From positions 1-33,804 of the forward strand of contig JAFQAZ010000012.1 of assembly GCA_017416855.1 (NCBI GenBank): a DNA stretch of 33,804 bases. Direction: 5' to 3'. Below, one piece after another: positions 234 through 33,663 of the stretch. The notes under the pieces are model-generated. The model had not been told where the DNA came from. It ran no database searches and saw only the letters and a program-made list of their open reading frames with translations. A program made the position numbers and the translations under genes. The first letter of the stretch is position 1. Every line of letters starts with the position of its first letter. This stretch comes from Clostridia bacterium. GTDB taxonomy: Bacteria > Bacillota > Clostridia > UBA1381 > UBA9506.

Positions 234-422
234 ATGGAAGATAAATTAATTATAAACAAAAAGAATTTAAAAGGCGAAGACGGATACAAAACATTTTCTG
301 TACGTATAAAAGAAGAAACCGTAGCAAAATTAAATAAGTTATCAGAAGAAACAAACAGGTCAAGAAACGAATTAATTAATATTTTATTAGACTATGCCAT
401 TGACAACAGCAAAGTAAAATAA
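234..422 (+). CDS. Small ribbon-helix-helix (CopG/Arc-type) DNA-binding protein
   Basis: This 62-residue protein has the ribbon-helix-helix pattern: a short strand (KTFSVRIKEE), a helix ending in KLSEETNRS, and a second helix starting RNELINILLDYAI. Such proteins act as dimeric repressors, often as antitoxins or copy-number regulators. The start at 234 is chosen because AGGTGA lies seven bases upstream; an in-frame TTG at 201 would overlap the -10 box. No toxin partner is seen. The gene is enclosed by repeats (1-141 and 462-605), so it may belong to a small mobile element. The fold is fairly clear; the role is not. Confidence 0.7.
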   Translation: MEDKLIINKKNLKGEDGYKTFSVRIKEETVAKLNKLSEETNRSRNELINILLDYAIDNSKVK

Positions 423-461: not shown

Positions 462-605
462 ATGTAGCGTTTTAACCGCTACATTTTTCTTTTTATGCCC
501 TGCCGGGCGGGCCTACTTTTGTTAGACAAAAGTAGCAAAAACGCGGGGGATTTCGATTTCCCCCGCACCCCTTAAAACGACACAGGGGCGTTGCCCCTGG
601 ACCCC
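462..605 (+). repeat. Array of four or five short hairpins in repeat DNA
   Basis: Consecutive perfect stems lie at 462-469/477-484 (loop TTTTAAC), 513-521/527-535, 543-550/559-566 and 583-589/593-599, with GCCC-TGCC-GGGC between the first two. The first hairpin plus the GCCCTGCCGGGC unit recurs at 33640-33680 with a different stem (TATCG/CGATA) but the same TTTTAAC loop, and in decayed form at 945-990. This is repeat DNA rather than coding sequence; the first stem may also end transcription of the RHH gene. Confidence 0.7.
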
Positions 606-697
606 GCCCTTGCCGGTAGAAAAGTGATTATCTCATTTTATTATTTAGCAAGTGTTTACGTTATTGCACAAACTGACTGCATCGTTATGCGCGTGTA

Positions 698-920
698 TTT
701 TAATTGGCGAATAAATACAAGCGAAGAGAAAAAAATCCTATCGCAAAACAAGGGTTATCAGTTTCCTTTGCGGTACCCTTGTTTTAGTGTGCGCGACAAG
801 CTGAGTGCTTGACGGCACACGGCGATAAAGGATTTTTGAAATGAGCTTTGTCATTTATCCAATTAAAATTCTTGCGACGGCAGGGGATTCGTAAAGGGGA
901 TGAGCGGTCATCCCCTTTAC
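698..920 (+). other. Folded element, left copy: long stem, three-way junction and hairpin
   Basis: A long imperfect stem (698-707/859-868, 711-716/853-858, 731-744/822-837) closes a three-way junction. Stem 1 is 745-755/775-785 and stem 2 is 787-792/815-820, with an inner hairpin at 797-811. A two-base AA bulge (828-829) and single-base linkers (A786, G821) complete the junction. A 13-bp hairpin with loop GCGG follows (891-903/908-920). The copy at 33392-33611 keeps the architecture, linkers, bulge and TTCCTTTGC loop while several stem pairs differ in a compensated way. It could be a structured RNA or a DNA fold used by a mobile element. Confidence 0.75.
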
Positions 921-944
921 ATAATAAGATAACTTGTAACATTT

Positions 945-5828: not shown

Positions 5829-7130
5829 TTATTTTTCTTTAATCATCAAACAGGTGTTGGGCTTCATGGTAAAGGTTAAATCACCGGTGGTGTCAATGAG
5901 CTCTGCATCGTGGGTTTCATCTAAAAGATACACCTCGTATTCACCTGTCTTTCCAAAATCAACCGTAAAGGTTTTATCCGCTGCTTCTTCCTCTTTTTCG
6001 TGATAGTAGGTAATGATGGTCATGGTTTTATCCTCATCATCCACACCGCAGAGGGTATAAAGATGATCAATTTGATCCTCACAAAGGATTTCTGCTTTTC
6101 TTTGATACATCCAGCTATACCAAAGGAAAACATAATAGGTTTTTAAAGGCCCAAGTGTTAAATGGTCAAACAAACCATTGAACAAACCAGGTCTTAAATC
6201 ATAATACATCATCATATCAATGGAAGAATGCTGACCGGCAGTCATACAGGCTAAAGTAAAGGCTGCACCCTTCATGGAAAGAACCACCTTAAAGGATTCT
6301 ACTATAGGCAAATCCCAAGATTTTACATAGTTCCACTCGTTGAAAATGTTTTCTACGTGACCAAAACCGTTGTCATTCAACAACTTTTGAATGCGGTTAT
6401 TCTTTTCAATAATTTGTTCCGGGTTGGGGCGATAGGTATGCCAGGAGAAAAAGTCTAAGGGTGCATTTCTTTTCTTCATTTCCGACAAAAATCTGGAAGC
6501 CCATTGTTCATCCCAGCCCAAGGCAGGGCCACCAATTTTCAAATGTGGAAAACAGCTTTTTAAATGCTTAGCCGCAACTTCATATAAATCAAAGAACTGT
6601 TCTTCCGTACCCGTCCAGGTGGTACCATCCCCTAAATCCGGCTCATTCCAAATTTCCCAATATTGCATATTATAATGAAAGCCCTCCGCCCAGCCTTCGT
6701 TATAGTGACGGATAATGTGCTCACAGATAACCGCCCATTTTTTAAAGTCCTTGGGAGGGTGAACATTAAACTTTTTAATATAATGCTCAATTTTTTGACC
6801 CAACCGATAAAACATTTCTGTTCCGGCATCACGGGTTATGGAAACATATTCATCCGTACAAACAAAATCATAGGATTCGGGGTCATAGGGATCCGCATCA
6901 AAATTAGGGAAAATCGCCGTAATATCTACAGTATGCTCACCACCGTAAGCGGAACAGTGTGCCGCATCGTGGTTGCGGGCATAAGGAATATTCAACGCTT
7001 TATATAACTCAAAATTACTGCGCACACCCTGACCGTTGCCATGACGGCGACCAATAGGCCCATTATTAACCGCATGCATAATTTTAAAAGCACCCTGTTT
7101 TTTCGATATATCAAACCGCAAAGTATCCAT
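5829..7130 (-). CDS. GH39-like glycoside hydrolase (beta-xylosidase family), copy 1
   Basis: A 433-residue protein without a signal peptide, so probably acting on imported oligosaccharides in the cytoplasm. The clan GH-A pattern is clear: WEIWNEP holds the acid/base (Glu163), and IFNEWN holds the likely nucleophile (Glu265). A beta-sandwich-like tail follows the barrel, as in GH39 beta-xylosidases. AAAGGAG precedes the ATG at good spacing, and a TTGCAA-17-TATAAT promoter lies upstream. A paralog at 31700-33058 shares the HPPKD..KW..ICEHIIRHYNEGWA block. No sugar transporter is adjacent. Substrate could be a xyloside or another beta-linked sugar; the family call is good, the substrate is open. 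Confidence 0.82.
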   Translation of the reverse strand: MDTLRFDISKKQGAFKIMHAVNNGPIGRRHGNGQGVRSNFELYKALNIPYARNHDAAHCSAYGGEHTVDITAIFPNFDADPYDPESYDFVCTDEYVSITRDAGTEMFYRLGQKIEHYIKKFNVHPPKDFKKWAVICEHIIRHYNEGWAEGFHYNMQYWEIWNEPDLGDGTTWTGTEEQFFDLYEVAAKHLKSCFPHLKIGGPALGWDEQWASRFLSEMKKRNAPLDFFSWHTYRPNPEQIIEKNNRIQKLLNDNGFGHVENIFNEWNYVKSWDLPIVESFKVVLSMKGAAFTLACMTAGQHSSIDMMMYYDLRPGLFNGLFDHLTLGPLKTYYVFLWYSWMYQRKAEILCEDQIDHLYTLCGVDDEDKTMTIITYYHEKEEEAADKTFTVDFGKTGEYEVYLLDETHDAELIDTTGDLTFTMKPNTCLMIKEK

Positions 7131-12942: not shown

Positions 12943-13018
12943 GGGCCATTAGCTCAGTCGGCAGAGCACTTGACTTTTAATCAAGGTGTCCGCGGTTCGA
13001 ATCCGCGATGGCTCACCA
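12943..13018 (+). tRNA. tRNA-Lys (TTT)
   Basis: A 76-nt cloverleaf with acceptor GGGCCAT/ATGGCTC, anticodon TTT, encoded CCA; last tRNA of the operon. Its final seven bases and the following terminator are copied at 18630-18679, so this is the left edge of the catabolic island. Confidence 0.95.
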
Positions 13019-13061
13019 AAAACCGCTTAAATCTTAGGATTTAAGCGGTTTTTTCTATGTC
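13012..13061 (+). repeat. 50-bp direct repeat, left copy (tRNA-Lys tail plus terminator)
   Basis: Fifty bases identical to 18630-18679, starting in the tRNA-Lys acceptor stem (CTCACCA) and running through the terminator to CTATGTC. Weaker similarity continues for about 20 bases. Such a pair is what integration next to a tRNA would leave, though unequal recombination could also produce it. Confidence 0.85.
13019..13056 (+). terminator. Terminator of the tRNA operon
   Basis: Stem AACCGCTTAAATC/GATTTAAGCGGTT with loop TTAG, followed by TTTTTT: a textbook intrinsic terminator directly after tRNA-Lys. Confidence 0.92.
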
Positions 13062-13137
13062 CGGAAAGTGTTTTGCTGAGCACTTGATTTTTGGCAAAAA
13101 AATCAAAAATCAAGGAGACAGAAAAATGAAGAAAATG

Positions 13138-13172: not shown

Positions 13173-14345
13173 TTATTTATTTAAAACCACTTCATTATAG
13201 GCCTCTTCTATATACTCTTCCAGCAAATCGTTTTGGTAGAGATATTCAAGCAGTGTATATCTGACACGGAATGTTCTGCCGCGCAGGCAGCCTTCAACAA
13301 ATTTATCATATTCAGGCGCTGTCATTGGAAGTTTGAGAGTTTTCTGCAAATCAAGAATACGCTCAAATGCAGGAAGATACTTTTCAATAAGCTTCTTAAT
13401 CTCCATATCATCTGTTTCTTTGTATAGCTTTTTATACATCGAGATTGCCACAAAGGTTGCTGCACCTACATCATGTCCGTGAAGTTGCAGTTCTCTGCCG
13501 TTTTCAAGATCCATTATCTCCCAGGTTTGTCCTATCATATGTTCAGTACCTGATGCAGGACGCGAACTACCGCTGTAAGCAATACCCATTCCGGAGGTGA
13601 TAAGACCGTTTACTATTTTTTCAATAGAGTCCGCCTTTCTCTCAAAAAGAGAGTATGCTTCATCAATACATTGGCTTGTAACATTGAGCACCATGTCTGC
13701 AATTTTTTCGCAATAATACTCACCCGTATGCATTGCAGAAAGCTCCCAATCAAGAATAGCAATATATTTTCCTATCATATCGCCAACGCCTGCTGTAAGA
13801 AGCTCGTATGGCGCATCTTTGCAGATTGCAGTATCAATAATTATATGACGTGCTATTGAGCACTGATACACAATCTTTGTTTTTCCAACTAAAAGTGGCG
13901 CAACAACAGAAGCATAACCATCCATAGAGGGAGCAGTTCCTACTATGCCATACTCAACACCGAGTCTGTAGCTTACCATACGGCATATATCATTTACTGA
14001 TCCGCTTCCAACAGCGAGGATATAATCGGGAAGGTCGCTCATTGCGTTTATGTCATATAATTCCCTATCAATACCTGCTTCAATTAAAACTCGTCCTATA
14101 TTGGTATCAGTGGGGTGTGCAGGACTTTTTAGAATGAATTTGTGTGAAAGACTTCCTGCTTCTTTAAGTAGCTGCTCCACTCTCTTCCCTGCCACTTCAT
14201 ATGTATTTTCATCAGAAACCATAAAAATTCTGTTATAGTTTTTTAAGATATCTGCCACCTTTTCCACTGCACCGGCAGACACTTCAATGCACTCAACCGG
14301 CGCTGTATGCACCTTTTGAGTACATGTGCAATCCATTTTCATCAT
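13173..14345 (-). CDS. egsA: sn-glycerol-1-phosphate dehydrogenase (AraM/EgsA-like)
   Basis: A 390-residue iron-type alcohol dehydrogenase relative that would reduce dihydroxyacetone phosphate to sn-glycerol 1-phosphate with NAD(P)H. The nucleotide-binding GSGS (113-116) is followed by the AraM-like GTAPSMDGYAS, and the metal ligands are expected at Asp189 (GVGDMIGK), His269 (SGTEHM) and His289 (LHGHDVG). Translation starts at 14345: AAGGAGG lies eight bases upstream, while the longer frame to 14372 would run into the upstream stop. It is the last gene of the island operon. Bacterial AraM genes often sit in sugar operons; a sugar-derived dehydrogenase role is also possible here. Confidence 0.85.
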   Translation of the reverse strand: MMKMDCTCTQKVHTAPVECIEVSAGAVEKVADILKNYNRIFMVSDENTYEVAGKRVEQLLKEAGSLSHKFILKSPAHPTDTNIGRVLIEAGIDRELYDINAMSDLPDYILAVGSGSVNDICRMVSYRLGVEYGIVGTAPSMDGYASVVAPLLVGKTKIVYQCSIARHIIIDTAICKDAPYELLTAGVGDMIGKYIAILDWELSAMHTGEYYCEKIADMVLNVTSQCIDEAYSLFERKADSIEKIVNGLITSGMGIAYSGSSRPASGTEHMIGQTWEIMDLENGRELQLHGHDVGAATFVAISMYKKLYKETDDMEIKKLIEKYLPAFERILDLQKTLKLPMTAPEYDKFVEGCLRGRTFRVRYTLLEYLYQNDLLEEYIEEAYNEVVLNK

Positions 14346-18510: not shown

Positions 18511-18629
18511 CACACCATCTTTTCCGCCGGTGCAATACTTATGGTACGCTTCCCTATAACACATGCGTGCTGTTTCAGGCACCGCCAAAAGCGATCGAAA
18601 CAGGAGGAAGCGCACCGTATTCACGATAA
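18511..18629. other. Gene-free junction with possible transposon relic
   Basis: No convincing gene. A short minus-strand frame (to 18624, reading VRFLLFRSLLAVPETARMC) ends in the REP-like repeats and might be a remnant of a REP-associated element, but I cannot assign it. A CTGTTTC/GAAACAG inverted repeat is present. The segment separates the AraC end from the right direct repeat. Confidence 0.3.
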
Positions 18630-18679
18630 CTCACCAAAAACCGCTTAAATCTTAGGATTTAAGCGGTTTTTTCTATGTC
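18630..18679 (+). repeat. 50-bp direct repeat, right copy
   Basis: Identical to 13012-13061: the last seven bases of tRNA-Lys, the terminator stem and T run, and CTATGTC. No tRNA precedes it here, so the terminator is orphaned. It would still stop transcripts coming from the island. Beyond it, 18680-18833 shows no gene. Confidence 0.85.
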
Positions 18680-18833
18680 TGGAAAGCTTTAGCTCAGCAC
18701 TCAATACTTGATATAAGAATCAAAGCTATCGATATAGAAAATACCTTTCGTAGTGGGATGAAGATATTTCTTTTGGCCAATTTGTAAGCTTTCGACATAA
18801 TTAAATATAAATCATCAAAAGGCGATAAAATGA

Positions 18834-18912: not shown

Positions 18913-20544
18913 ATGGAATTTTGTGGGATTTGTGGAGACCTTATTACAGAGAATCATGCCGAGTGTAGTCGATGCGGTGCTACGCTTCGCGGAAAAACAT
19001 GTTCTCTTCTTTCTGAAAATTTTGATGACATTGAAAATGCTGCCTTCGAAGGCGACTGCGAGGCAATGTTTTTGCTGTATTGCGCATATAAAGAAGGTGT
19101 CGGAACGGATAAAAATGAGTTCTCTGCTTTTTACTGGCTGAAAGAGGCAGCAGACCATGGATGTATAAAAGCCTACTATGATTTGAGTTTAGCTTATGCA
19201 AACGGTTTGTCTACACCTGTTAATCCGATCGAAGCCAAAAAGTGGATGGATTTGTTCGAAAGCAATGTGAATCAGGAGATTTCCTTAACCAATAACACGA
19301 TAAACAATATACCAACCGATAACAATGATGCATGTTCCCCCAAAAACAACCCATCTGAAAGTTCGGAAGAAATATGGTTTGACGATAAGGTTGAAGAGGA
19401 TTTTGATTGCGAAAATAATGAAGAATATACAGACGATGAAGATGATAACGAGTTCTATATAGAAGATGACAATGAAGAAGATGAAGATGACGATGATTCC
19501 GTGTATCTGGGCGATTTAGATTTTAAAGAAATTTATGACGGCGCAGTACAAGGGGATTGCGATTACGCTGCGGAGCTCGCGGTCCGTTATGCAAAAGGTG
19601 AGGATTGCGATCAGGATTTAAATATGGCTTTTTTCTGGGCGGAGAAAGCAGAAAGCATATGCGATTCAAATTTGTGCCGTGAGATTTTGTGTCATTTTTA
19701 TGCGATTAATAAAGATGTGGAAAAATGCAACGAATTGTTACACGACATTGAAGCAGAAGATGAATTCTATGCAGCTCAGGTTTGTGCATGGTATTATGAA
19801 CTGCTCTTTGAAGAAAAAGCCTTTAGAGAATTTACAGAACAGGATTTCGAAGCACATTTAAAGCTTTTAAAAAGTGTGAAAATGATAGCAGAGGATGATA
19901 TTGAAGAAGGTCTTGAAGATACAGAAACCGTTAAACAGTATTTGGATTTGTTAGAAGTTTATATGCAGGATATCAACAGCAAACAATTCAGCAGAACAAA
20001 GGCACAGGATGAGTGGTTGTATTTTGCTCAAAAACTGGTTGATTGCGGTGAAACGGATATGGCAGAAAAACTTGCCGATCAATACGATAGTTTACGGGAT
20101 GAAGATGTAAAGTATGCGAAAGCGGCTTTGGCATTGTATGAAGAGTTAGGCGAAAACGGCAATGTTGAAGCGCAGTATATGGCAGGCATTTACCATGAAT
20201 TTGGCATTGGTACAAAAGTTGACCATATGGCGGCAAATCAGTGGTATGAAACTGCGGCAAGGGCCAACCATTCAGAAGCCTGCACGAATTTTGCCTATAA
20301 TCTGCATAATGGTATCGGTGTTGGTCAAAATCATAATTTGGCAGTTGAATATTACCTGAAAGCTGCAGAGCAAGGGCATCCCAGAGCCATGTATAATCTT
20401 GGGTGCCATTATGAAGATTACAGAGATTATGTTGAAGCCGCACGATGGTATAAACGGGCAAAAGAATGCGGATATGAAGATGCCAAACAGGCATATAAAA
20501 ATATTATAAAAAATGTACCCAAATTATCCCGTATGTTTTTATAA
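18913..20544 (+). CDS. Zinc-ribbon protein with SEL1/TPR-like repeats
   Basis: A 543-residue soluble protein opening the seven-gene operon. Residues 4-21 form a zinc ribbon with two CxxC pairs (Cys4, Cys7, Cys18, Cys21). SEL1-like repeats follow (about 42-120), then a very acidic, Asp/Glu-rich linker (about 150-200), another SEL1-like repeat (about 210-250), a helical middle region, and a C-terminal block of three or four SEL1 repeats (about 400-530, for example AQYMAGIYHEFGIGT and AVEYYLKAAEQGHPRAMYNLG). Such repeats bind other proteins, so a scaffold or adaptor for the membrane complex encoded downstream is likely. AAGGAG lies six bases before the ATG. Its function is not known. Confidence 0.75.
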   Translation: MEFCGICGDLITENHAECSRCGATLRGKTCSLLSENFDDIENAAFEGDCEAMFLLYCAYKEGVGTDKNEFSAFYWLKEAADHGCIKAYYDLSLAYANGLSTPVNPIEAKKWMDLFESNVNQEISLTNNTINNIPTDNNDACSPKNNPSESSEEIWFDDKVEEDFDCENNEEYTDDEDDNEFYIEDDNEEDEDDDDSVYLGDLDFKEIYDGAVQGDCDYAAELAVRYAKGEDCDQDLNMAFFWAEKAESICDSNLCREILCHFYAINKDVEKCNELLHDIEAEDEFYAAQVCAWYYELLFEEKAFREFTEQDFEAHLKLLKSVKMIAEDDIEEGLEDTETVKQYLDLLEVYMQDINSKQFSRTKAQDEWLYFAQKLVDCGETDMAEKLADQYDSLRDEDVKYAKAALALYEELGENGNVEAQYMAGIYHEFGIGTKVDHMAANQWYETAARANHSEACTNFAYNLHNGIGVGQNHNLAVEYYLKAAEQGHPRAMYNLGCHYEDYRDYVEAARWYKRAKECGYEDAKQAYKNIIKNVPKLSRMFL

Positions 20545-20586
20545 CAAACGAAGCGAAAATATTATTTTTAAAGGAGAATGAATCAT

Positions 20587-20892
20587 ATGGACGAAGTAAC
20601 AAAGCAGGACATTCTGAACACGGAAGAATCTGTTGCAATAGCTGAAGACCTTGTTGATGCACCGCAGGAGGACTTTGATGAAGAAACTGATGCTGTTGCC
20701 GAAGAAGAACTCAAAATGTTTAAAAATGCTTATTATGACCTTGTAGAAGATACGTATCCTGAGGATAGCGAAATCTGGAGCGATTTTAAACGATATTTAA
20801 AATCTCCCAGAAATATGCAAATCAATACGGAAAGCATTGTGATTGGTGCTATGGCAATTATGTTTATTGTTGCCTTGTTTTTAGTAAGATAG
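20587..20892 (+). CDS. Small acidic tail-anchored membrane protein
   Basis: A 101-residue protein with an acidic N-terminal half and one hydrophobic helix at the very C-terminus (IVIGAMAIMFIVALFLV), so most of it should face the cytoplasm. The ATG at 20587 is preferred to that at 20578, which is too close to the AAGGAG. It sits 42 bases after the SEL1 gene and 13 before the coiled-coil membrane protein. It may recruit the SEL1 protein or the ATPase to the membrane. No family is recognised. Confidence 0.6.
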   Translation: MDEVTKQDILNTEESVAIAEDLVDAPQEDFDEETDAVAEEELKMFKNAYYDLVEDTYPEDSEIWSDFKRYLKSPRNMQINTESIVIGAMAIMFIVALFLVR

Positions 20893-20905
20893 GAGGAGTA
20901 CTGAG

Positions 20906-23149
20906 ATGAATTACGAAGCAGAACTGACTGAGCAGTTACAGTCTTCTACAAAGACAGAGCTTTACAGCAAATTATATAATACATATCTTGATACAGAAAA
21001 CGAAATTTCTTCAATTCAAAATGGAAAAATTGCAGCATGTAAGAGAAAATTAAAATCCATAGAGGATGCTCTTAAAGAAATTGAAAATGAAGAGGCATTG
21101 CTTGCAGACAGTGATAAACTGCGTGCGCAATATCTGGGACAAATCAGAGCCTCCGAAGAAGAGAACATTAAGCGCAAGTTTTCTCTGCAGGGTAAGGAAA
21201 TCAAAGAGAAAATTAGTCAGTTACAAAGGGATATAGAGGAGGAAAATTCAGCGATAGCATCTCGCCAGATCGAGGACGAAGCAAAACGCTTCAACACTTT
21301 AATTGGTAAAACAAAGAGTATGTTTGCTATGACCAGCGACGAAAGAACATCGGTGGAAATCGCTGCCTCCAACGAGCCTGGTGCAAGCCTTCGAAAAGAC
21401 TATGAGCAATATAGTGACGATTTCTTTGAAACCCTTTTTAAAGGGCAGAAAAACTTTAAACAATATATCAACTTGTTTGATAAGGCTTTGAGCATTTTTC
21501 AGCCAAAAAAACATTTTGCAAACCTATCATTAATCATTATATTTGTGTTAATCGAAGTTTTAATTCAGCTTATTGCTGCTGTCTTTATGGATGGTGTATT
21601 TTTCAAAACCATTCTATTGTGTATCGGATTTTCCTGCACCGGTCTTGCCGTTAATGAGCTGATACGATATGCATTATTGGATTTAAGAGAAGAAAAGAAC
21701 AAAAAATCAACAAGAGCCATCATTGACATTGTGTTGCTTGTGGTTGCCGCGGCAATGTTGTGGCTTTCCTGCTCATTTTTGGTGTCCACCTTTAAGAGAA
21801 AGTTATTTAAAGGTATTTGCGGATTGATTTTTGGTGCTGCTGCAGTATTTTTCGGGTCTGTTATATATGATGAGATATTTGCAAACGGAAAATTTATTAT
21901 GCCCTTAACTGCCAAAGAAAAAGATAACATTGTTATTTGGCATGCTATGATGGATATAACGGGCGATATTGACGATGAATTATCCAAAATTTTCTGCGCC
22001 GTTGATGTATTTAAAGAAAAACAGGCGGATAAAAAACAGTTTACCCACATTATGAATATTATTGCACAAGATGACTCTCCGGTGATAGAGCAAATTCGTC
22101 AGGACTTTTATAGTGACTTGTTTGGCGAAGGCGGAATGGTCTCCAATAAGCTTTTGAGCTTGCAGAAAAAAATGTCAGACCTTAACCAAAAATTATCAGA
22201 CCTGGATGCAGAACGTAATAAAGCTATCGCACAAGTTAAAAATGAATCTTTTGCAGAACAAGTAGATGCAAAGTTACATGAACACAAAGAAGCCATTAAA
22301 GCATCTATTGCGGCTAAAAATAAGGGCAAGCTACTGGAAGACAAACAGGACCAGGAAGCAAATATTAATTATTTTAACGAACAAATCAAAACAATGAAAG
22401 CCAGCGAAACCGATGCGATTCAGAAAATGCAGGAATTAAAAGAGATTTTCAGCAAAAAAATTGATACCCCGGTTGCCGCTAAAATTGATAACAGACTCCC
22501 GTTAGGCTTTGCTCAAACAAGTACAGGCACAGATGCACTGATTCACATTGAGCATAATATGAAGCCGGTTGTTATTAAATGTACCGATGTGCAGGCAGAA
22601 AACAACGGTAATGAAATGTCTGAAATTGAGGAGTTTGTCTGTCATGCATTTTGGGGCTGTGTGTATAACAATATGAAAGAAACAGCTCTTCATCTTTATG
22701 ATGAACGTGCAGCGTTTTCTAACCTGTTCTATGACAGAAATGTTGCAGCAGCATCCCAGAATCGCTATATTGTTCATAAGATAGATGCCAACGATGTCAG
22801 CCGTGATATTGCGGAAATCATTGAGAACAAATCAAGACTGACCGGTAAGATTGAGGATTATAACAGAATCTGTCTTACAGAAATGAGAAACATCATTAAG
22901 TATGACATCATCTTCATTTATGGTCACAATAAGCTATTAAATGATAAAGACTTTATCAGAATATTAAACAACACCGAAAACTGGGGTATTGTTCCTGTTT
23001 TAATCATAAACGAAAACAATTATGCTGAAAATGCCGACAGTGAGTTTATTAAGGCCGCTGTTAAAAACAATGCCGTATATAGACTCAATAGAAGTGCATT
23101 TGCAGATAAGTTTGTTGTTGAACAGAACTACATAGAAAAAGTTTTATAA
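20906..23149 (+). CDS. Coiled-coil membrane protein with a degenerate FtsK-type ATPase domain
   Basis: This 747-residue protein has an N-terminal coiled coil (about 30-130), four membrane helices (about 205-228, 231-252, 270-292 and 303-322), a second coiled coil (about 410-515) and a C-terminal alpha/beta domain (about 528-747). The last domain follows the order of an FtsK/SpoIIIE motor: a strand at PVVIKC where the Walker A loop should be, a DANDVSRDIAEIIENKSRL..IEDYNR helix pair, then YDIIFIYG at the Walker B strand. The GxxGxGKS loop and the DE pair are missing, so it should not hydrolyse ATP. It resembles the inactive motor domains of type VII secretion EssC/EccC, but on a separate chain. 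The domain match is by eye. Confidence 0.6.
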   Translation: MNYEAELTEQLQSSTKTELYSKLYNTYLDTENEISSIQNGKIAACKRKLKSIEDALKEIENEEALLADSDKLRAQYLGQIRASEEENIKRKFSLQGKEIKEKISQLQRDIEEENSAIASRQIEDEAKRFNTLIGKTKSMFAMTSDERTSVEIAASNEPGASLRKDYEQYSDDFFETLFKGQKNFKQYINLFDKALSIFQPKKHFANLSLIIIFVLIEVLIQLIAAVFMDGVFFKTILLCIGFSCTGLAVNELIRYALLDLREEKNKKSTRAIIDIVLLVVAAAMLWLSCSFLVSTFKRKLFKGICGLIFGAAAVFFGSVIYDEIFANGKFIMPLTAKEKDNIVIWHAMMDITGDIDDELSKIFCAVDVFKEKQADKKQFTHIMNIIAQDDSPVIEQIRQDFYSDLFGEGGMVSNKLLSLQKKMSDLNQKLSDLDAERNKAIAQVKNESFAEQVDAKLHEHKEAIKASIAAKNKGKLLEDKQDQEANINYFNEQIKTMKASETDAIQKMQELKEIFSKKIDTPVAAKIDNRLPLGFAQTSTGTDALIHIEHNMKPVVIKCTDVQAENNGNEMSEIEEFVCHAFWGCVYNNMKETALHLYDERAAFSNLFYDRNVAAASQNRYIVHKIDANDVSRDIAEIIENKSRLTGKIEDYNRICLTEMRNIIKYDIIFIYGHNKLLNDKDFIRILNNTENWGIVPVLIINENNYAENADSEFIKAAVKNNAVYRLNRSAFADKFVVEQNYIEKVL

Positions 23150-23167
23150 TCTTTGGAGGGATTACAT

Positions 23168-23896
23168 ATGCAGTCAAGAATATCAGTCAATGTTGAAGCA
23201 CAAGAAGAAATTATAGCCGTCTTACAGAAATGCTCCTGTGATATCGGCGAAAATGCCAGCGAATTGGTTCAGGCATTCAAAAATCTTGCTGCCGACAGCC
23301 ATTATGAACATCTGGTGAAACAATCCAATACCATTATTGCTTTTTATAATGAGGTTATTGTATCTAAAATTCTGGAAATTTGTGAAGATTGGTCAAATTC
23401 AAATCAATCTATTGCATCCTATTGTGAGATTGCACGTGCCGGTGAAAATGCTTGTGAAACGGCACGTCAGCTGATGAAGGATATGATTCTCACAATCGAA
23501 GACAATTTGCCTAAGATTATGGAAATTGACGATGTTGATACATCTGAGTTTTCTATGTCTGAAGAGCTTTATGAAGACCTGAAAAAAGAAGCTGCAACAA
23601 GATTGGATAACATTAAAGATGCTTATATGAATTCTAAAAAGGAAGCAGAAGATATTGAACAGAACAACGCCATGGCCGGCGGTTTATATGCTCCCATTGA
23701 AGCAATTGGCATCAGTATCATCAATCCTTTTGAAGAAATTGTAGACAGAGTGATTGACAGCATCAGAGAAGAATTTGTAGAAATCAATGCCAGCATCAGA
23801 AATATGTCTTCGGCAGCGGCTGAGGAAGTCGCAAGCGAATCTTCCAATGTCAACGCAGATGAACTGATGGGTGAATTACTTTCTGATATAATGTAG
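23168..23896 (+). CDS. Helical protein of unknown function, possibly WXG-superfamily-like
   Basis: A 242-residue, nearly all-helical, acidic protein. The N-terminus (ISVNVEAQEEIIAVLQKCSCDIGENASEL) has the strand-then-long-helix start seen in WXG100-type proteins, but no W-x-G turn is visible. Two further helical segments follow (about 85-120 and 130-165) and a Ser/Ala/Glu-rich tail ends in ADELMGELLSDIM. The start at 23168 follows TGGAGGG; the frame could extend to a TTG at 23153, which would translate the Shine-Dalgarno. It lies directly before the ATPase gene (11 bases). It may be a substrate or structural partner of the motor; that is inference. Confidence 0.5.
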   Translation: MQSRISVNVEAQEEIIAVLQKCSCDIGENASELVQAFKNLAADSHYEHLVKQSNTIIAFYNEVIVSKILEICEDWSNSNQSIASYCEIARAGENACETARQLMKDMILTIEDNLPKIMEIDDVDTSEFSMSEELYEDLKKEAATRLDNIKDAYMNSKKEAEDIEQNNAMAGGLYAPIEAIGISIINPFEEIVDRVIDSIREEFVEINASIRNMSSAAAEEVASESSNVNADELMGELLSDIM

Positions 23897-23907
23897 GTGA
23901 ATGTTTT

Positions 23908-26211
23908 ATGAATTTCAAGTTTAATGTAAAAGGAAGCTCCCAAGGCTCATCCTCCAATGAATTTATGGACTTTTTTGAGCCTCAGAAGCAGGTTTTTGCA
24001 TATTCTGATTTTCTTGATGTTTTCTCAAAATACTTTGAGCTGGGAAAAGAAAAAAATCTGTCAGCGATTGATTATGGCGAGGGACAGTATGTGACCATTT
24101 GTCCCGAACCCATTACATTCATGGAAAATTTTTATGATGCACAGACGACAGATGCCAGCAGAAAAATTTTTGAAGAACTAATGGAAAGCTTTAAGCAAAT
24201 ACCTCTTTCCGAAACACCGGATAACGGGATATGGTTTAATAAAACATTAAATGGCATTAACTTAAGACCAGGACGGAGCGACCCGCCTGTGGATGTTGCT
24301 GCGGTTGAACTAGGCGATCACAGCGTGCATGGCATGATTGTCGGTAGAACCGGTTCAGGTAAATCTGTATTTTTAAACAATCTGTTATTTAATATGATGA
24401 CAGAATATCCACCATGGGAACTGGATTTATATCTTGCTGACTTTAAAAAAGTGGAACTCAGCCGATATATGACCTGTGATTTTGGTAGTAGTCCTCATGT
24501 GCGTGCTTGTGCTGCAACCAGCGAGATTCGCTATGTGGTGTCCTTACTTACCTATATTACAGAGTGCATGCGTGCCCGGGAAAACTTCCTGAAAAAAATG
24601 GGCTTCACCAAAATTGCCGATTTAAGAAATTATTATAGCGAAAAAAATCTTGTACTGCCCAGAGTGTTGCTTTTAGTTGATGAATTTCAGCAAATGTTTT
24701 TAGAGGCAACATCACGAGAAGCTCTGATGATTGAAACCTTGCTGACAACAATCACCAAGCTTGGTCGTGCAACCGGGTTTCATTTACTGTTTGCCAGTCA
24801 GGAAATGTCTGGGACATTAAGCGGCAAAGCTTTTGCCAACTTTAAGGCAAGATTTGCCCTGCCCTGCGATGCAGAAATTTCAACTGCAATCTTAGGCAAT
24901 TCCGCAGCTGCAGATATCTTTGAAAAGGGTGTCGTAATTGTCAACACAAAAGCAGGGGCAAAAGAAGATAATATTAAATATAAAGTTCCCTTTATTTCCG
25001 ACGATGTTAATTCCTTGACGGCAAATGATGTGAGCTTTTATGATTATCTCAAGTTCCTTGTCACGGCTGCACAAAAGTATGAATTTTCGAAAGTTCAGAA
25101 ATTCTATGATGAAGATGCAAAAGAGAACATAGCAGCCGTTGAGGATTTAAGAAAGAATCCGGCATATGTTTCTCAAATGAATCTTATCATCAAAAATAGT
25201 TTTGAGGCTTATGAATCCTTGCTTTTGGGCCGTCCCGTTGTGTTTAACTCAAAAAAAGTTGATTATGAAACTGTATTTTTAGAAAGAGGCAAAAAGAAAA
25301 ATATCAGTATCATTTGCAACAAAACGGAAGATGCGGCCTACGTTACCAAGCTCTTAGCAGAAAATTTCAAGACTTCAATAAAAAGAGACCATTATGTACA
25401 TTACATTGTACAGAAGAATCCGATTTTAGAATCAGTCTATTCTCTTGCAGATGATATGGGCATACCGGAGGAAAACATTGACAGATATGGCGAAAGCCTT
25501 GAAAAGTATATTACAAGATGCGAGTGCAATAAATATTTGTTTGCTATTTTACAGAAGTATAACGACATAGCAAGCTTTTTGGCAGCGGCATCTAAAAGTA
25601 TTGTAAAACAATACAGAATCAAGGCAGAATCTGTTAAAAAGGTTGATAACGGAAAAGTCTCTGAACAAATCAACAAGCTTGCCGATCAGATAGACGGATA
25701 TACACCTGAGACCTTCCGTAAGCTTCTTGAACCCTTTGACGGGGGAAAAACAGAACAGAATTTGCGGGATTTCTGCAATCATGATAACCACAACAAAACC
25801 TACCAAAGCTACGTGGATGCCTTTATTAACTACAGAATAAAGAAACTGCCTTTAGCTGATTGCATCCCTATGTACGTGGTGTGGATTTTGGGTCTTGAAA
25901 ATGTGGAAAGTCTCAGCAGACAATTTTTAAATAGTACAACGGACAGTTTGTTTTATAACGTTTTGTATATTTTTTGTTGTGCAACTGATGATGGCGTTAG
26001 CGACTATATTAAACAGTGTGATTACATTTTTATTAATACACCTGATGAAAGAGTTTACAACAGATATAAAATAAACTACACGCAAAAGAACGAAAACTCA
26101 ATCGCCATTGATTTTAAAGTGAGAAGTGCAGAAACAGAACGTGCATTCAAAAAGTTTCATTGTACATTTAAAGATTATTATGTACCGTTTATTGATTTCG
26201 ATAAATTTTAA
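23908..26211 (+). CDS. FtsK/SpoIIIE-type ATPase with one intact and one degenerate motor domain
   Basis: A 767-residue soluble protein. The first motor domain has a perfect Walker A (GRTGSGKS, 146-153), the FtsK-type DLYLADFKK strand, the RARENFLKKMGFTKIADLRNYY helix region, Walker B (LLLVDEF, Asp258, Glu259) and the ASQ sensor strand (296-298). A second domain starts near 438 (LGRPVVFNS) and has strands at the right places, but ISIICNKTEDA replaces the Walker A loop, so it is probably inactive. The paired active/inactive motors recall type VII EssC/EccC, but there are no membrane helices and no forkhead domain; the membrane part would come from the coiled-coil protein. AGGTGA lies upstream. 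Cargo, whether protein or DNA, is unknown. Confidence 0.82.
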   Translation: MNFKFNVKGSSQGSSSNEFMDFFEPQKQVFAYSDFLDVFSKYFELGKEKNLSAIDYGEGQYVTICPEPITFMENFYDAQTTDASRKIFEELMESFKQIPLSETPDNGIWFNKTLNGINLRPGRSDPPVDVAAVELGDHSVHGMIVGRTGSGKSVFLNNLLFNMMTEYPPWELDLYLADFKKVELSRYMTCDFGSSPHVRACAATSEIRYVVSLLTYITECMRARENFLKKMGFTKIADLRNYYSEKNLVLPRVLLLVDEFQQMFLEATSREALMIETLLTTITKLGRATGFHLLFASQEMSGTLSGKAFANFKARFALPCDAEISTAILGNSAAADIFEKGVVIVNTKAGAKEDNIKYKVPFISDDVNSLTANDVSFYDYLKFLVTAAQKYEFSKVQKFYDEDAKENIAAVEDLRKNPAYVSQMNLIIKNSFEAYESLLLGRPVVFNSKKVDYETVFLERGKKKNISIICNKTEDAAYVTKLLAENFKTSIKRDHYVHYIVQKNPILESVYSLADDMGIPEENIDRYGESLEKYITRCECNKYLFAILQKYNDIASFLAAASKSIVKQYRIKAESVKKVDNGKVSEQINKLADQIDGYTPETFRKLLEPFDGGKTEQNLRDFCNHDNHNKTYQSYVDAFINYRIKKLPLADCIPMYVVWILGLENVESLSRQFLNSTTDSLFYNVLYIFCCATDDGVSDYIKQCDYIFINTPDERVYNRYKINYTQKNENSIAIDFKVRSAETERAFKKFHCTFKDYYVPFIDFDKF

Positions 26212-26225
26212 CAAGGGTGATGATT

Positions 26226-27596
26226 ATGGGAATATCTTTTACAGATGTTGCAAAAAGTGAAATTAAAGATCACATAAGCATAAAAGCACAAGGCTATGCC
26301 GGATTTATCAACAATATTTATGACAAGATTAATGCAAAAGCAGAAGAAACGCAGTTTAAACCCATTAAAGATATTGCGGACAAGCTATGCATTTTGTTAC
26401 CGTCAAAATTCTTTGCTACGTTTACAGAAAAGTCCGTTGACTTACTAAGACAAAGCAGGCTTTCTTTCAAAAACGTGGTTTCAACTGTCAAAGCAGGAGA
26501 AAAAGCCGAAGATGCTGCCGATGATTTTACCGGCGAGGTGCAAACCGCTACAGAAAGTAGTTTTGTGCTTCAAATGCATGAACCAACAGGCAGTTACAGT
26601 GAATTTAACGTTGATGAAGAAGATTTAAATCAGCTGTGTAACGACATTGCTGCTGAAATTGCAGAGCTTAAAGTATATGCAAAACAGACAGAAGACGAGA
26701 TTCTGGAAAAAATGCAGGAAAATACAATGTATGTAGCGGTACTTGTTTTGAATAAAGCAAGAAGTGCTATGACCATTGCTATGTGCGAAGCTATGTACGC
26801 AACAGTAAAAAAACTGACAGATTTGTACATGGATAGGGTTGAACTGATCAGAAAAACGCAAGCAGATATTTCCCCGAACATTTCCCTAGAAAACATTCTT
26901 GCTCTTGGTTTGTATGGCGGTTTTAAAAACATGGATGGTTGTGCAGGCAATGGCGGATACCGCGCAGGAAAAGAAGGCGTTGGCACCATCCCGGTTCCGC
27001 CTGAGATGCAGGGCGGAGATGAGGAAGATAATCCGTTTGATATGAATGTGGATGGTCAATGCTTTAATCGCGAAGAGCAATTCAAGTATTTTGGGTTTAA
27101 TTTTATTGATTCACGGGCGGTTACAACAGATGACGATGGCTCTGTCAGTGCTATGGATGAGTTTGGCAGATGGCTTTCCTCTTCTATGCAGACTAAAAAG
27201 ATATCCTGTCAGGATGTCCTTGACATTTTGCCAGCTTACAGTGAAAGCTTACTGTGTACAGCAGCAGACCATTTTGCTTCAAATGACTTTTTGGCAACGG
27301 CGAATTCCAAAGCTTTGTTTGGTGATGCTGTTCCAGCCGATGGCACGACAGCCCTTTCGGAACTTTTAGAAAAAACGCGTAAATATTGCGAAGAGATTAA
27401 GCTCGATAAAGCAGCAGAGTGTATGATGCAGATTACATCGTTTGCTGACGGATATAACTGTGAGGATGTACAAGCCTATCATCATGCATGCGATGTGATG
27501 AGTCAGACTCTGTTCTCTATGATCGGTGCCGAAGTTGACTTTGATGATTATATCGATTATAAAATTATGAAGGGGGATATAGCAAGTGGAGAATAA
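26226..27596 (+). CDS. Large helical protein of unknown family with a glycine-rich hinge
   Basis: A 456-residue protein following the ATPase gene by 14 bases. The N-terminal 215 residues are mostly helical, with an amphipathic repeat around AELKVYAKQTEDEILEKMQENTM. A glycine- and proline-rich hinge (about 225-270, for example GCAGNGGYRAGKEG) leads to a C-terminal helical domain (about 300-456). No signal peptide, membrane helix or catalytic motif is seen. The ATG at 26226 is chosen because AAGGGTGAT is correctly placed; GTG at 26217 is too close. It may be a structural or exported component; no family is recognised. Confidence 0.55.
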   Translation: MGISFTDVAKSEIKDHISIKAQGYAGFINNIYDKINAKAEETQFKPIKDIADKLCILLPSKFFATFTEKSVDLLRQSRLSFKNVVSTVKAGEKAEDAADDFTGEVQTATESSFVLQMHEPTGSYSEFNVDEEDLNQLCNDIAAEIAELKVYAKQTEDEILEKMQENTMYVAVLVLNKARSAMTIAMCEAMYATVKKLTDLYMDRVELIRKTQADISPNISLENILALGLYGGFKNMDGCAGNGGYRAGKEGVGTIPVPPEMQGGDEEDNPFDMNVDGQCFNREEQFKYFGFNFIDSRAVTTDDDGSVSAMDEFGRWLSSSMQTKKISCQDVLDILPAYSESLLCTAADHFASNDFLATANSKALFGDAVPADGTTALSELLEKTRKYCEEIKLDKAAECMMQITSFADGYNCEDVQAYHHACDVMSQTLFSMIGAEVDFDDYIDYKIMKGDIASGE

Positions 27597-29256
27597 TACT
27601 TTAGATTATTGTGTTACCCCTCAACTGGCCTCAGAAATAGAGCAACATGTAACGACAATCGCTAAAATGACAGAATATAAAATGATTATCTACAATCTGA
27701 TTGTGCAAATTGTTGTTAAAGACAGTGCCATCTTTAAAATGCTGGAAGTTCTGACATCGCCTAAAAAGCTTATCTGTGCCATTCCGTCAGCCTTAAAAAA
27801 TGTTTTTAAGCGCGTCAAGTATAACAAAGAAGATTTAGATGACATTCAGGCTATGGAAGATTTACTGGATACTCTGGAAAAAAACTACGAGGATTTAACT
27901 TCAGGAAAGTTCCTACCCTGCTTGAATGCAGTCTATCAAAACGGAATTAAAGCACTTGAAAGCTGTATTATCCTTCTGGAAAGACAACAAGTTCCAAGTG
28001 TCAGCAAGTTGATGTACCATGTTGAGTTTGTTAGAAATATGAACAGAATTCTGTTGGCTGTTCAGTCCTTTTTAAAAGGAGATATTTTAGAAAAAATCAG
28101 CTTTGTTATTGACAACGCTGAGAACATTGCAGAAGCAGCTGCAGAAGGAAACGAAGAGGCAATTGAGAGCTTTGTTGCCAGTCATCCAGACGTCATAGAA
28201 AACTGCAAGACTGCACTTGCGGCCTTAAGAGGCATTATGAACGTTACAACGACATTTAATCCCGACTTAGCAGACAATTATAAGGACCTTGTGAGCGGAA
28301 ATCTGAGCGATACCTTAAATGGCGGATTGTCTATTTTGGGGAATGTAACAGCAGCAATGTCAGAAGTTGCTCAAGGTACAAATGTAGAAAATAATTTGAA
28401 AAAAGCAAGTGACTGCATCGAAAAATTAAAAGAGATGAGTGGTCTGTTCAGTGGCAATATGCAGGATACCATCAACAGCGCCATCAGCACGGTGGAAAAT
28501 GCAATTGATGAAATGGGCAAAGGTGCCAAAACTGAAATTGGAAAAAACAATGCCGGCACAGCGCGTACAGCCGTTGAACTGTTAAAAGGTGTAACAAAGG
28601 ATGTATCTCAGGTGGGCGAATGGGTCGCAACCTGTGCTGCTGGTGGTTTGGGCATTGTTACATCCAGTGTGGACTTTTTACAAATTAAGGGCGTGCACAG
28701 AGGTCTTTCACATTTTTATAAAAAACTCTTATTGAAGACCATGGGCCCCATTGAAGACCCTGAAGATCAGGCGATTTTCGATGAAGTCTTTGGTTATGAG
28801 TGGGCAAAATATGACCATGAAATGCATGCTTCCGGCGATTTTGGTATCAGACAAAAATCTGCTTATACACCTCTCCTGAGATTCATAGAAACCTTTGATT
28901 TATCGCCAATGGCAGGGGATGAGTTTGCGTTTCTTACCTTACATGAATTTGTTGAAAAACACGGTGTTGACTCAAAAAATTATAAACAAAAACGGCAGGA
29001 GATTATCAATCAATCAACAGAAACACCCCTTGCGGAAATTGAACTGGCCTTTTTATGTACACATCTGTTTTGGTGCAGAAGCAATTATGGGGACGTGGAT
29101 GAGGCAGATAAATGCATTAAGTTCCTTTCTATTATGAACGGCTTTTTACAACGCATTGCACCTGATTTTGCTGAAGAGGCAAAACCGATGGTGTTTGAAA
29201 AAATGAAAGAATTAATTGCACGTTGGGATGATAAACATATTGTACAGTTTTCTTAA
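27586..29256 (+). CDS. Large helical protein of unknown family, last gene of the operon
   Basis: A 556-residue protein starting at GTG behind AGGGGGATATAG and overlapping the preceding gene by 11 bases, so the two are translationally coupled. The first 200 residues are helical; about 200-330 is rich in small and polar residues (LNGGLSILGNVTAAMSEVAQGTN, NMQDTINSAISTVENAIDEMGKGA), like a flexible helical rod. A mildly hydrophobic Gly/Ala segment (WVATCAAGGLGIVTSSV, about 345-361) may touch the membrane. The C-terminal 180 residues form a distinct domain with several Trp and His. No known effector motif is seen. Confidence 0.55.
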   Translation: MENNTLDYCVTPQLASEIEQHVTTIAKMTEYKMIIYNLIVQIVVKDSAIFKMLEVLTSPKKLICAIPSALKNVFKRVKYNKEDLDDIQAMEDLLDTLEKNYEDLTSGKFLPCLNAVYQNGIKALESCIILLERQQVPSVSKLMYHVEFVRNMNRILLAVQSFLKGDILEKISFVIDNAENIAEAAAEGNEEAIESFVASHPDVIENCKTALAALRGIMNVTTTFNPDLADNYKDLVSGNLSDTLNGGLSILGNVTAAMSEVAQGTNVENNLKKASDCIEKLKEMSGLFSGNMQDTINSAISTVENAIDEMGKGAKTEIGKNNAGTARTAVELLKGVTKDVSQVGEWVATCAAGGLGIVTSSVDFLQIKGVHRGLSHFYKKLLLKTMGPIEDPEDQAIFDEVFGYEWAKYDHEMHASGDFGIRQKSAYTPLLRFIETFDLSPMAGDEFAFLTLHEFVEKHGVDSKNYKQKRQEIINQSTETPLAEIELAFLCTHLFWCRSNYGDVDEADKCIKFLSIMNGFLQRIAPDFAEEAKPMVFEKMKELIARWDDKHIVQFS

Positions 29257-31675: not shown

Positions 31676-31699
31676 TTAATGTAAAAGGAGTTGAAGGAC

Positions 31700-33058
31700 A
31701 TGGCAAATATTAACGTTGATTTTGAACGAATTACAGGTAAAATCAAGCCTATGCACGCGGTGGGTCAACCGCCGTTTATCCATAAATCTGAAGCATTGGA
31801 TTTTTCACCCATGCAGATTCTCACGGATGCCAATATTCCCTACTCCCGTCTCCACGACGTTGGCGGCCCCTATGGTAGCTACCGTTATGTGGATATCCCC
31901 AACATTTTCCGTGATTTCGATGCAGATGAAACCGATCCCGAAGCATATGACTTCGCTTTTACGGATGAGCTGTTAAAAGCATTACACGAATACGGTGTAG
32001 AGCCTTACTTCCGTCTGGGCGTTACCATTGAAAACCAACGGTACATCAAGGCATATCGCATTCATCCCCCAAAGGATTACAAAAAATGGGCACGCATTTG
32101 CGAACATATCATAAGGCACTACAATGAGGGTTGGGCAAACGGCTTTCACTACGGTATCACATACTGGGAAATATGGAACGAGCCGGATAACCGTCACACT
32201 CCGGAGAGAAATAAAATGTGGACGGGCAGTGCCGAACAATATTATGAGCTGTATGATGTTGCGGCAAGGCATCTGAAACAATGCTTCGGCGACTCAATCA
32301 AAGTAGGCGGTTATGCCGCTACCGGTTTTTACGGCATTTTTGCAGACCCCGAGAAATACGGAATGGACATCGAAAAGCGTGACGACATCCGCTATAGCGG
32401 TCCCAAAGAACAATACCGTATGCAGTTTTTATATGGATTTTTAGACTACATAAAAGAGCACAACTCCCCCATGGACTTTTTCTCGTGGCACTCCTATTCC
32501 ACCGTGGATGTTGTTACTGTTTTAGCCGATTTTATTGATAAGGTGCTGACCGAATATGGCTACGGTGATGTTGAAACCCACTTAAATGAGTGGAATAATT
32601 CCCACAACAGAATACTGAACAGAACCTCCTCTTTTGCTTCTGCAAATGTGACGGCAACCATGTGTGCCCTGCAGAACAAAAAAACAAGTATGCTCATGTA
32701 TTACGATGCAAGATATGTGGCATTGGGTGCATACGCCGGTTTTTATGATGTGAATACCTATGAGCCCTGCTGTGTGTATTATGCTTTTAAAGCCTTTGGG
32801 GTTCTGTACGCTATGGGAAACCAGGCAAAAGCAGAATGTGATGCCGAGGGAATTTATGTTGTTGCGGCGACAGACCAAAATGAAAAAGGTGTTCTGCTCA
32901 CAAACGCTACGGATTGTGATCAAACAATTAAAACCAATCTTACCGAAAACTTTGAGGCTTTTCTCATTGATGAAAACCATTTGATGACGAAAGCAAAGAT
33001 AAACCCTGCTACCTTTGTGCTAAAAGCAAACCAGATTATTCTTTTGAGACAAAAGTGA
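31700..33058 (+). CDS. GH39-like glycoside hydrolase, copy 2
   Basis: A 452-residue protein, paralogous to the gene at 5829-7130. It shows the same motifs: WEIWNEP with the acid/base Glu161 and HLNEWN with the likely nucleophile Glu297. Compared with copy 1 it carries an extra stretch of about 30 residues before the nucleophile (around 208-240, YGIFADPEKYGMDIEKRDD), which would reshape the active-site surface and may change substrate. There is no signal peptide. The start at 31700 follows AAAGGAG; a TTG at 31691 is also in frame. Its own promoter and terminator make it a single-gene unit. Confidence 0.82.
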   Translation: MANINVDFERITGKIKPMHAVGQPPFIHKSEALDFSPMQILTDANIPYSRLHDVGGPYGSYRYVDIPNIFRDFDADETDPEAYDFAFTDELLKALHEYGVEPYFRLGVTIENQRYIKAYRIHPPKDYKKWARICEHIIRHYNEGWANGFHYGITYWEIWNEPDNRHTPERNKMWTGSAEQYYELYDVAARHLKQCFGDSIKVGGYAATGFYGIFADPEKYGMDIEKRDDIRYSGPKEQYRMQFLYGFLDYIKEHNSPMDFFSWHSYSTVDVVTVLADFIDKVLTEYGYGDVETHLNEWNNSHNRILNRTSSFASANVTATMCALQNKKTSMLMYYDARYVALGAYAGFYDVNTYEPCCVYYAFKAFGVLYAMGNQAKAECDAEGIYVVAATDQNEKGVLLTNATDCDQTIKTNLTENFEAFLIDENHLMTKAKINPATFVLKANQIILLRQK

Positions 33059-33391: not shown

Positions 33392-33611
33392 AAAATTCCG
33401 ATAAAATCCCCGTGAAAGTTTTGCAAAATCATCGTAAAACAAGCTGTTTCGACTTCCTTTGCTGACAGCTTGTTTTAGTGCACGGGAGACATAAGTTGCC
33501 GACTGTGCACGACGATAAGATTTTGCAAAAATAAGCGGTTGGATTTTTAGAATTTTGAATACTTAGTGCGGCAGGGGATTCGTAAAGGGGATGAGCGGTC
33601 ATCCCCTTTGC
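33392..33611 (+). other. Folded element, right copy: long stem, three-way junction and hairpin
   Basis: The long stem pairs 33392-33398/33550-33556, 33403-33409/33541-33547 and 33419-33435/33512-33530. Stem 1 is 33436-33447/33465-33476 and stem 2 is 33478-33483/33505-33510. The AA bulge is at 33517-33518 and the linkers are A33477 and G33511. The hairpin 33582-33594/33599-33611 has loop GCGG. Every feature corresponds to one in the left copy (698-920), although the stems differ in sequence. Confidence 0.75.
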
Positions 33612-33663
33612 ATATAATAATTAAATTAATAATTGAATATATCGTTTTAACCGATACATTTTC

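Follow-up and report, generated by a model that had tools for sequence, protein, structure and literature searches.

A covarying three-way junction that may form the arm of a small palindromic mobile DNA element in Clostridia

The structured repeat that occurs twice in the window, by which is meant the whole 33,804-nucleotide stretch of DNA analysed here, is best read as a member of an undescribed family of small mobile DNA elements in gut-type Clostridia. Its arms keep the same three-way-junction shape despite differences in their letters, its copies are dispersed and usually lie in inverted pairs, and it is present at some genomic sites and missing from their orthologues. On balance we favour a non-autonomous palindromic element whose arms would fold as single-stranded DNA and be moved in trans by a recombinase or transposase. 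The window is contig 11 of its source genome (G000; 2.37 Mb in 32 contigs), which holds four full junction copies in two sequence types and another cut by a contig end. The sister species G004 also has four junction copies; in the rest of the genus, no genome has copies above chance level. No description of this element was found in a literature search. The features of the two window copies, W1 and W2, are collected in Table 1.

Table 1. Features of the two junction copies and their surroundings, in window coordinates
Feature	Position	Strand	Remarks
W1 long outer stem, main stem and three-way junction	697..868	+	fold z -8.8
W1 main stem	731-744/822-837		AA bulge at 827-828
W1 stem 1	745-755/775-785		whole stem 745-785
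W1 linkers	786; 821		A at 786; G at 821
W1 stem 2	787-820
W1 3' part, AGGGG-ATT-hairpin	881..921	+	GTAAAGGGGATGA GCGG TCATCCCCTTTAC; hairpin 891-920
Candidate left arm of W1 element	495..607	+	from sequence; assignment to the W1 element putative
Left-arm GCCCTGCCGGGC hairpin	~495-511	+
Left-arm T-hairpin	512-534	+	CTACTTTTG-TTAGA-CAAAAGTAG
Left-arm G-hairpin	541-566	+	CGCGGGGG..CCCCCGC
Left-arm box	583-601	+	CAGGGGCG..GCCCCTGG
W2 outer stem and three-way junction	33392..33563	+	core 33418-33530; fold z -10.2
W2 3' part, AGGGG and hairpin	33571..33611	+	hairpin 33582-33611
Small ribbon-helix-helix (CopG-family) regulator gene	234..422	+	Pfam RHH_1, E 5.6e-6

The three-way junction that the sequence-only reading had proposed for both copies was borne out by folding against shuffled sequences. 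None of the shuffles folded as well as the whole elements, and the cores of W1 and W2 gave z-scores of -5.8 and -6.1. The covariance model R3 matches W1 at 729-837 (93.5 bits; E 4.5e-22, E-values being rough here) and W2 at 33420-33527 (83.6 bits). That reading had placed the core correctly and drawn the element too small, as the outer stem begins at 697. The AGGGG-ATT-hairpin part is near-identical across all copies of the window's genus, and the order AGGGG-linker-GGGG..CCCC recurs in other families. The GCGG loop, put forward as a shared feature, is present in the element and is conserved solely within the window's own genus.

Paired changes in the stems, the observation on which the earlier claim of a preserved fold was built, are found in 29 of 78 pairs among four copies, each altered on both sides. 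The proposed A and G linkers hold in 100% and 97%, respectively, of 116 copies. Across 111 distinct copies, compensatory changes occur in 39 of 40 pairs and 86% of cells pair; the covariation score is 0.773, compared with 0.19 for shuffled alignments and at most 0.118 for slid controls, on an alignment fitted to the structure and thus favourably biased. The family itself is no artefact of such fitting, because the first distant matches came from a model trained on two sister species alone. The unpaired letters that are conserved are the linkers A and G, a T(R)AGT pentaloop, and the loop AT(C)A..TTYCC..TGC. Independent relatives strongly support the claim that what is preserved is the fold and not the sequence. 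Comparison with the Rfam 15 covariance models, as a test for an already described RNA, gave no match at the element above the gathering score.

With the core covariance model, R1, distant copies came to light in two further families, and improved models recovered the same junction in families f1, f19, f20, and f54, all in the window's class. Carrier genomes usually hold 4-12 copies, counted in what are mostly draft assemblies with frequent contig breaks within the element. To call the element duplicated was thus an understatement: both window copies are real, and they belong to a multicopy family. Among 398 genomes sampled from the phylum, only the window's own had copies, and plasmids, phages, and viral contigs held no junction copies. 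Two viral pattern matches were discarded as they do not fold like the junction, and an R1 match in G006 proved to be a terminator-like hairpin instead.

In relatives, the complete element is palindromic and about 0.7 kb long, and the junction makes up half of it. Its order is outer hairpin, T-hairpin, G-hairpin, junction (-), short centre, junction (+), G-hairpin, and T-hairpin. Junction pairs in f19, f20, and f54 are divergent in 28 cases, 25 of these with a gap of 54-152 nt, versus a single convergent pair. The compact f54 form consists of a T-hairpin (CTTTTG..CAAAAG), a G-hairpin beside CCCCT, a GCCCC box, junction (-), the centre, and junction (+), followed by the mirror image; in compact copies such as L103, the centre between the outer stems is about 28 nt. 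The copies read, other than those in the window, have mirrored outer hairpins around a short non-coding centre, the arrangement expected of a miniature inverted-repeat element (MITE). The ends differ between families, and no single end sequence is shared. W1 and W2 are not inverted pairs. L103 and L101, both inverted-pair elements, begin on the left with a module ordered like that at 495..607 and very close to it in letters. By eye, W1 has the T-hairpin, G-hairpin, and box on its 5' side (512-607) and a single junction with the AGGGG-hairpin on its 3' side, and so looks like a left outer arm joined to a right junction. W2 consists of the junction and hairpin only, without left-arm hairpins. 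Both appear to be rearranged or partial forms that keep the right-hand junction. Just 5' of the GCCCTGCCGGGC hairpin lies a further small hairpin, at 462-484 and 33637-33659, whose paired differences (GTAGCG-TTTTAAC-CGCTAC versus TATCG-TTTTAAC-CGATA) mark it as another structure-conserved module.

Orthologous sites without the element show that it inserts as a unit. L076 in G370 is filled while its orthologue L214 in G474 is empty, and the same holds for L105 in G370 against L216 in G474, and for L083 in G370 against L234 in G475. A further site, L024 in G004, is filled relative to L157 in G000; here a different repeat module surrounds the insertion, and the two sites could also have come to differ through recombination between repeats. 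Where L138 in G386 has the whole element, the orthologous L228 in G475 (~14041-14262) has only T-, G-, and T-hairpins and is an internal-deletion form. G004 carries a 1327-bp unit, G4C153, made up of an XRE gene, a further, unassigned gene, and a 3'-terminal junction; its sister species G000 lacks the unit, an absence that deletion in G000 might also explain. At the orthologous site L041/L103 the element aligns better in reverse, which suggests from the alignment that it was inverted or re-inserted. TA flanks the element on both sides in one f20 genus (L129, L134, L052), and no clear target-site duplication is seen elsewhere. One apparent case, C30 and G4C80 as a single XRE-junction unit at two sites, was dropped as evidence of movement since the flanks point to one orthologous locus beside a chromosomal rearrangement.

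The earlier reading left open whether the structure was an RNA or a single-stranded DNA fold recognised by a transposase. The evidence leans towards DNA, as the end structure of a mobile element. The mechanism we propose is that each window copy represents one arm of the palindromic element. Once exposed as a single strand, each arm would adopt the conserved junction fold along with the terminal hairpins, and a recombinase or transposase supplied in trans would recognise the folded arms at both ends, with a centre able to carry small regulator genes (XRE, AbrB-like). The sharper version, in which the terminal arms are aptamer-like junctions read in single-stranded form by a recombinase in trans and regulator genes are possible cargo, is tentative and falls short of an even chance.

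The strongest competitor is a structured non-coding RNA, about 230 nt long with the GC hairpin at its end and carried on a mobile repeat, that would itself act, for example in regulation or as the guide or cofactor of a trans-acting protein. Such an RNA would account for the unpaired bases conserved on one strand (the pentaloop, the TTYCC..TGC loop, and the linkers) and for the excess of G-T over A-C mismatches (17 events versus 5). Taken together, these two features indicate a definite strand, and they would do so for RNA and single-stranded DNA alike. A promoter-like site, TTGACA-17-TAAAAT, also faces the element from the divergent XRE gene at C30 and its orthologue. Against this, promoter matches around W1 and W2 do not exceed chance expectation, L100 and L101 have terminator-like hairpins separating the junction from the cargo genes, and there is no Rfam relative. 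The symmetry of inverted pairs, the centre of about 28 nt, which has no space for two divergent promoters, and the near-absence of G-T pairs all argue for DNA: stem 1 is almost purely Watson-Crick, with 8 G-T among ~1200 cells, and G-T makes up 4.7% of minimum-free-energy pairs versus 9.9% in tRNAs. We lean moderately towards single-stranded DNA over RNA, and an RNA role seems rather unlikely.

The arms are almost perfectly Watson-Crick paired and contain few G-T intermediates, a state that could also arise passively. Long hairpins are substrates for template-switch correction, which would keep palindromes perfect and produce paired changes by a mutation mechanism instead of selection on the fold. 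Across four families, however, the shape of the junction, its linkers, and its loop letters are conserved, and the junction keeps to one orientation with respect to the ends of the element, making this explanation improbable. Least credible of all is a structured recombination site of an integron-like cassette, a small gene with a folded single-strand site, for which the G4C153 insertion might speak, as the copies are dispersed rather than arrayed, inverted pairs dominate, no integrase lies next to the copies read, and no GTTRRRY boxes are seen at the stem base.

The transposase half of the earlier suggestion found no counterpart: no copy contains a transposase, and the search for a mobilising enzyme found none. 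No parent insertion sequence (IS) sharing the element ends was found. The distribution of Y1 transposases does not track the carriers. IS200/RAYT was considered as the mobiliser and is unsupported, with no Y1 gene in G000 and with RAYT loci that have other repeats and no solid junction match, save a marginal R3 hit of 22 bits next to the gene in G358. At L184, L188, L190, and L191, the RAYT-type Y1 genes have palindromes of their own on both sides, either GGGGACGGTTC-type or ACACATTGGGGACTGTCCCCAATGTGT. Separately, an identical IS-like sequence with an ORF start abuts the element arm at two contig ends, in L100 (3395-3505) and L102 (1985-2092), which suggests, from these shared letters, that an IS targets the element hairpins.

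The regulator gene upstream of W1 is possibly cargo or a neighbour. Several other copies adjoin XRE or AbrB/MazE-like genes, some of which lie between the two arms (L100, L101). An XRE gene is within reach of 10 of 84 element loci versus 2 of 120 control windows, an enrichment biased upward by a search profile built partly from element loci; at that frequency, XRE genes are rejected as obligatory cargo. Elsewhere in the window, a perfect 141-bp inverted repeat beginning with a TATGCCCTGCCGGGCGGG hairpin occupies both contig ends (1-141 and 33664-33804), the contig probably having been cut off at a dispersed repeat. A 71-bp direct repeat, 92% identical, lies at 12998-13068 and 18616-18686 and contains a perfect terminator-like palindrome. 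Two related inverted genes, 5829-7130 (-) and 31691-33058 (+), share 73% DNA identity over 128 bp and look glycoside-hydrolase-like. The gene run at 18913-29256, with an FtsK/SpoIIIE-like ATPase (P-loop MIVGRTGSGKS, 23908-26211) and several uncharacterised proteins, is possibly a secretion-type cluster.

Covariation is the usual hallmark of a functional RNA; here it would mark the end structure of mobile DNA or, failing that, a family of structured repeats not described before, and RNA-discovery pipelines may pick up such elements. With many copies, empty sites, and a covariance model, the family also offers a test system for the recognition of folded single strands in transposition. Among known systems, integron attC sites work as folded single-stranded DNA in which structure is conserved over sequence, a likeness to the element described here. 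They belong to arrayed cassettes with an integrase and have no junction of this shape, whereas the element occurs as single dispersed copies or inverted pairs, with no cassette arrays among its copies. REP/BIME repeats, associated with RAYT (TnpA-REP), are likewise dispersed, intergenic, non-autonomous hairpins, often in inverted pairs and with a short 5' tag before the hairpin. REPs, however, are single hairpins of 20-40 nt as opposed to an arm of ~230 nt with a conserved three-way junction, and the RAYT genes of the genomes analysed here have GTGTCAAGGGGACGGTTC-type repeats of their own on either side. MITEs are also small, non-autonomous, palindromic, intergenic, and structured when single-stranded, but their ends follow those of the parent IS and their core is not structurally conserved (PMC10969869), in contrast to the conserved internal junction and fixed loops seen here. 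The STAXI motif also covaries, and a role as single-stranded DNA has been considered for it; it lies near DNA-handling genes and is made up of tandem pseudoknots whose loops are UUCG (PMC2864571), unlike the paired three-way junctions of this element.
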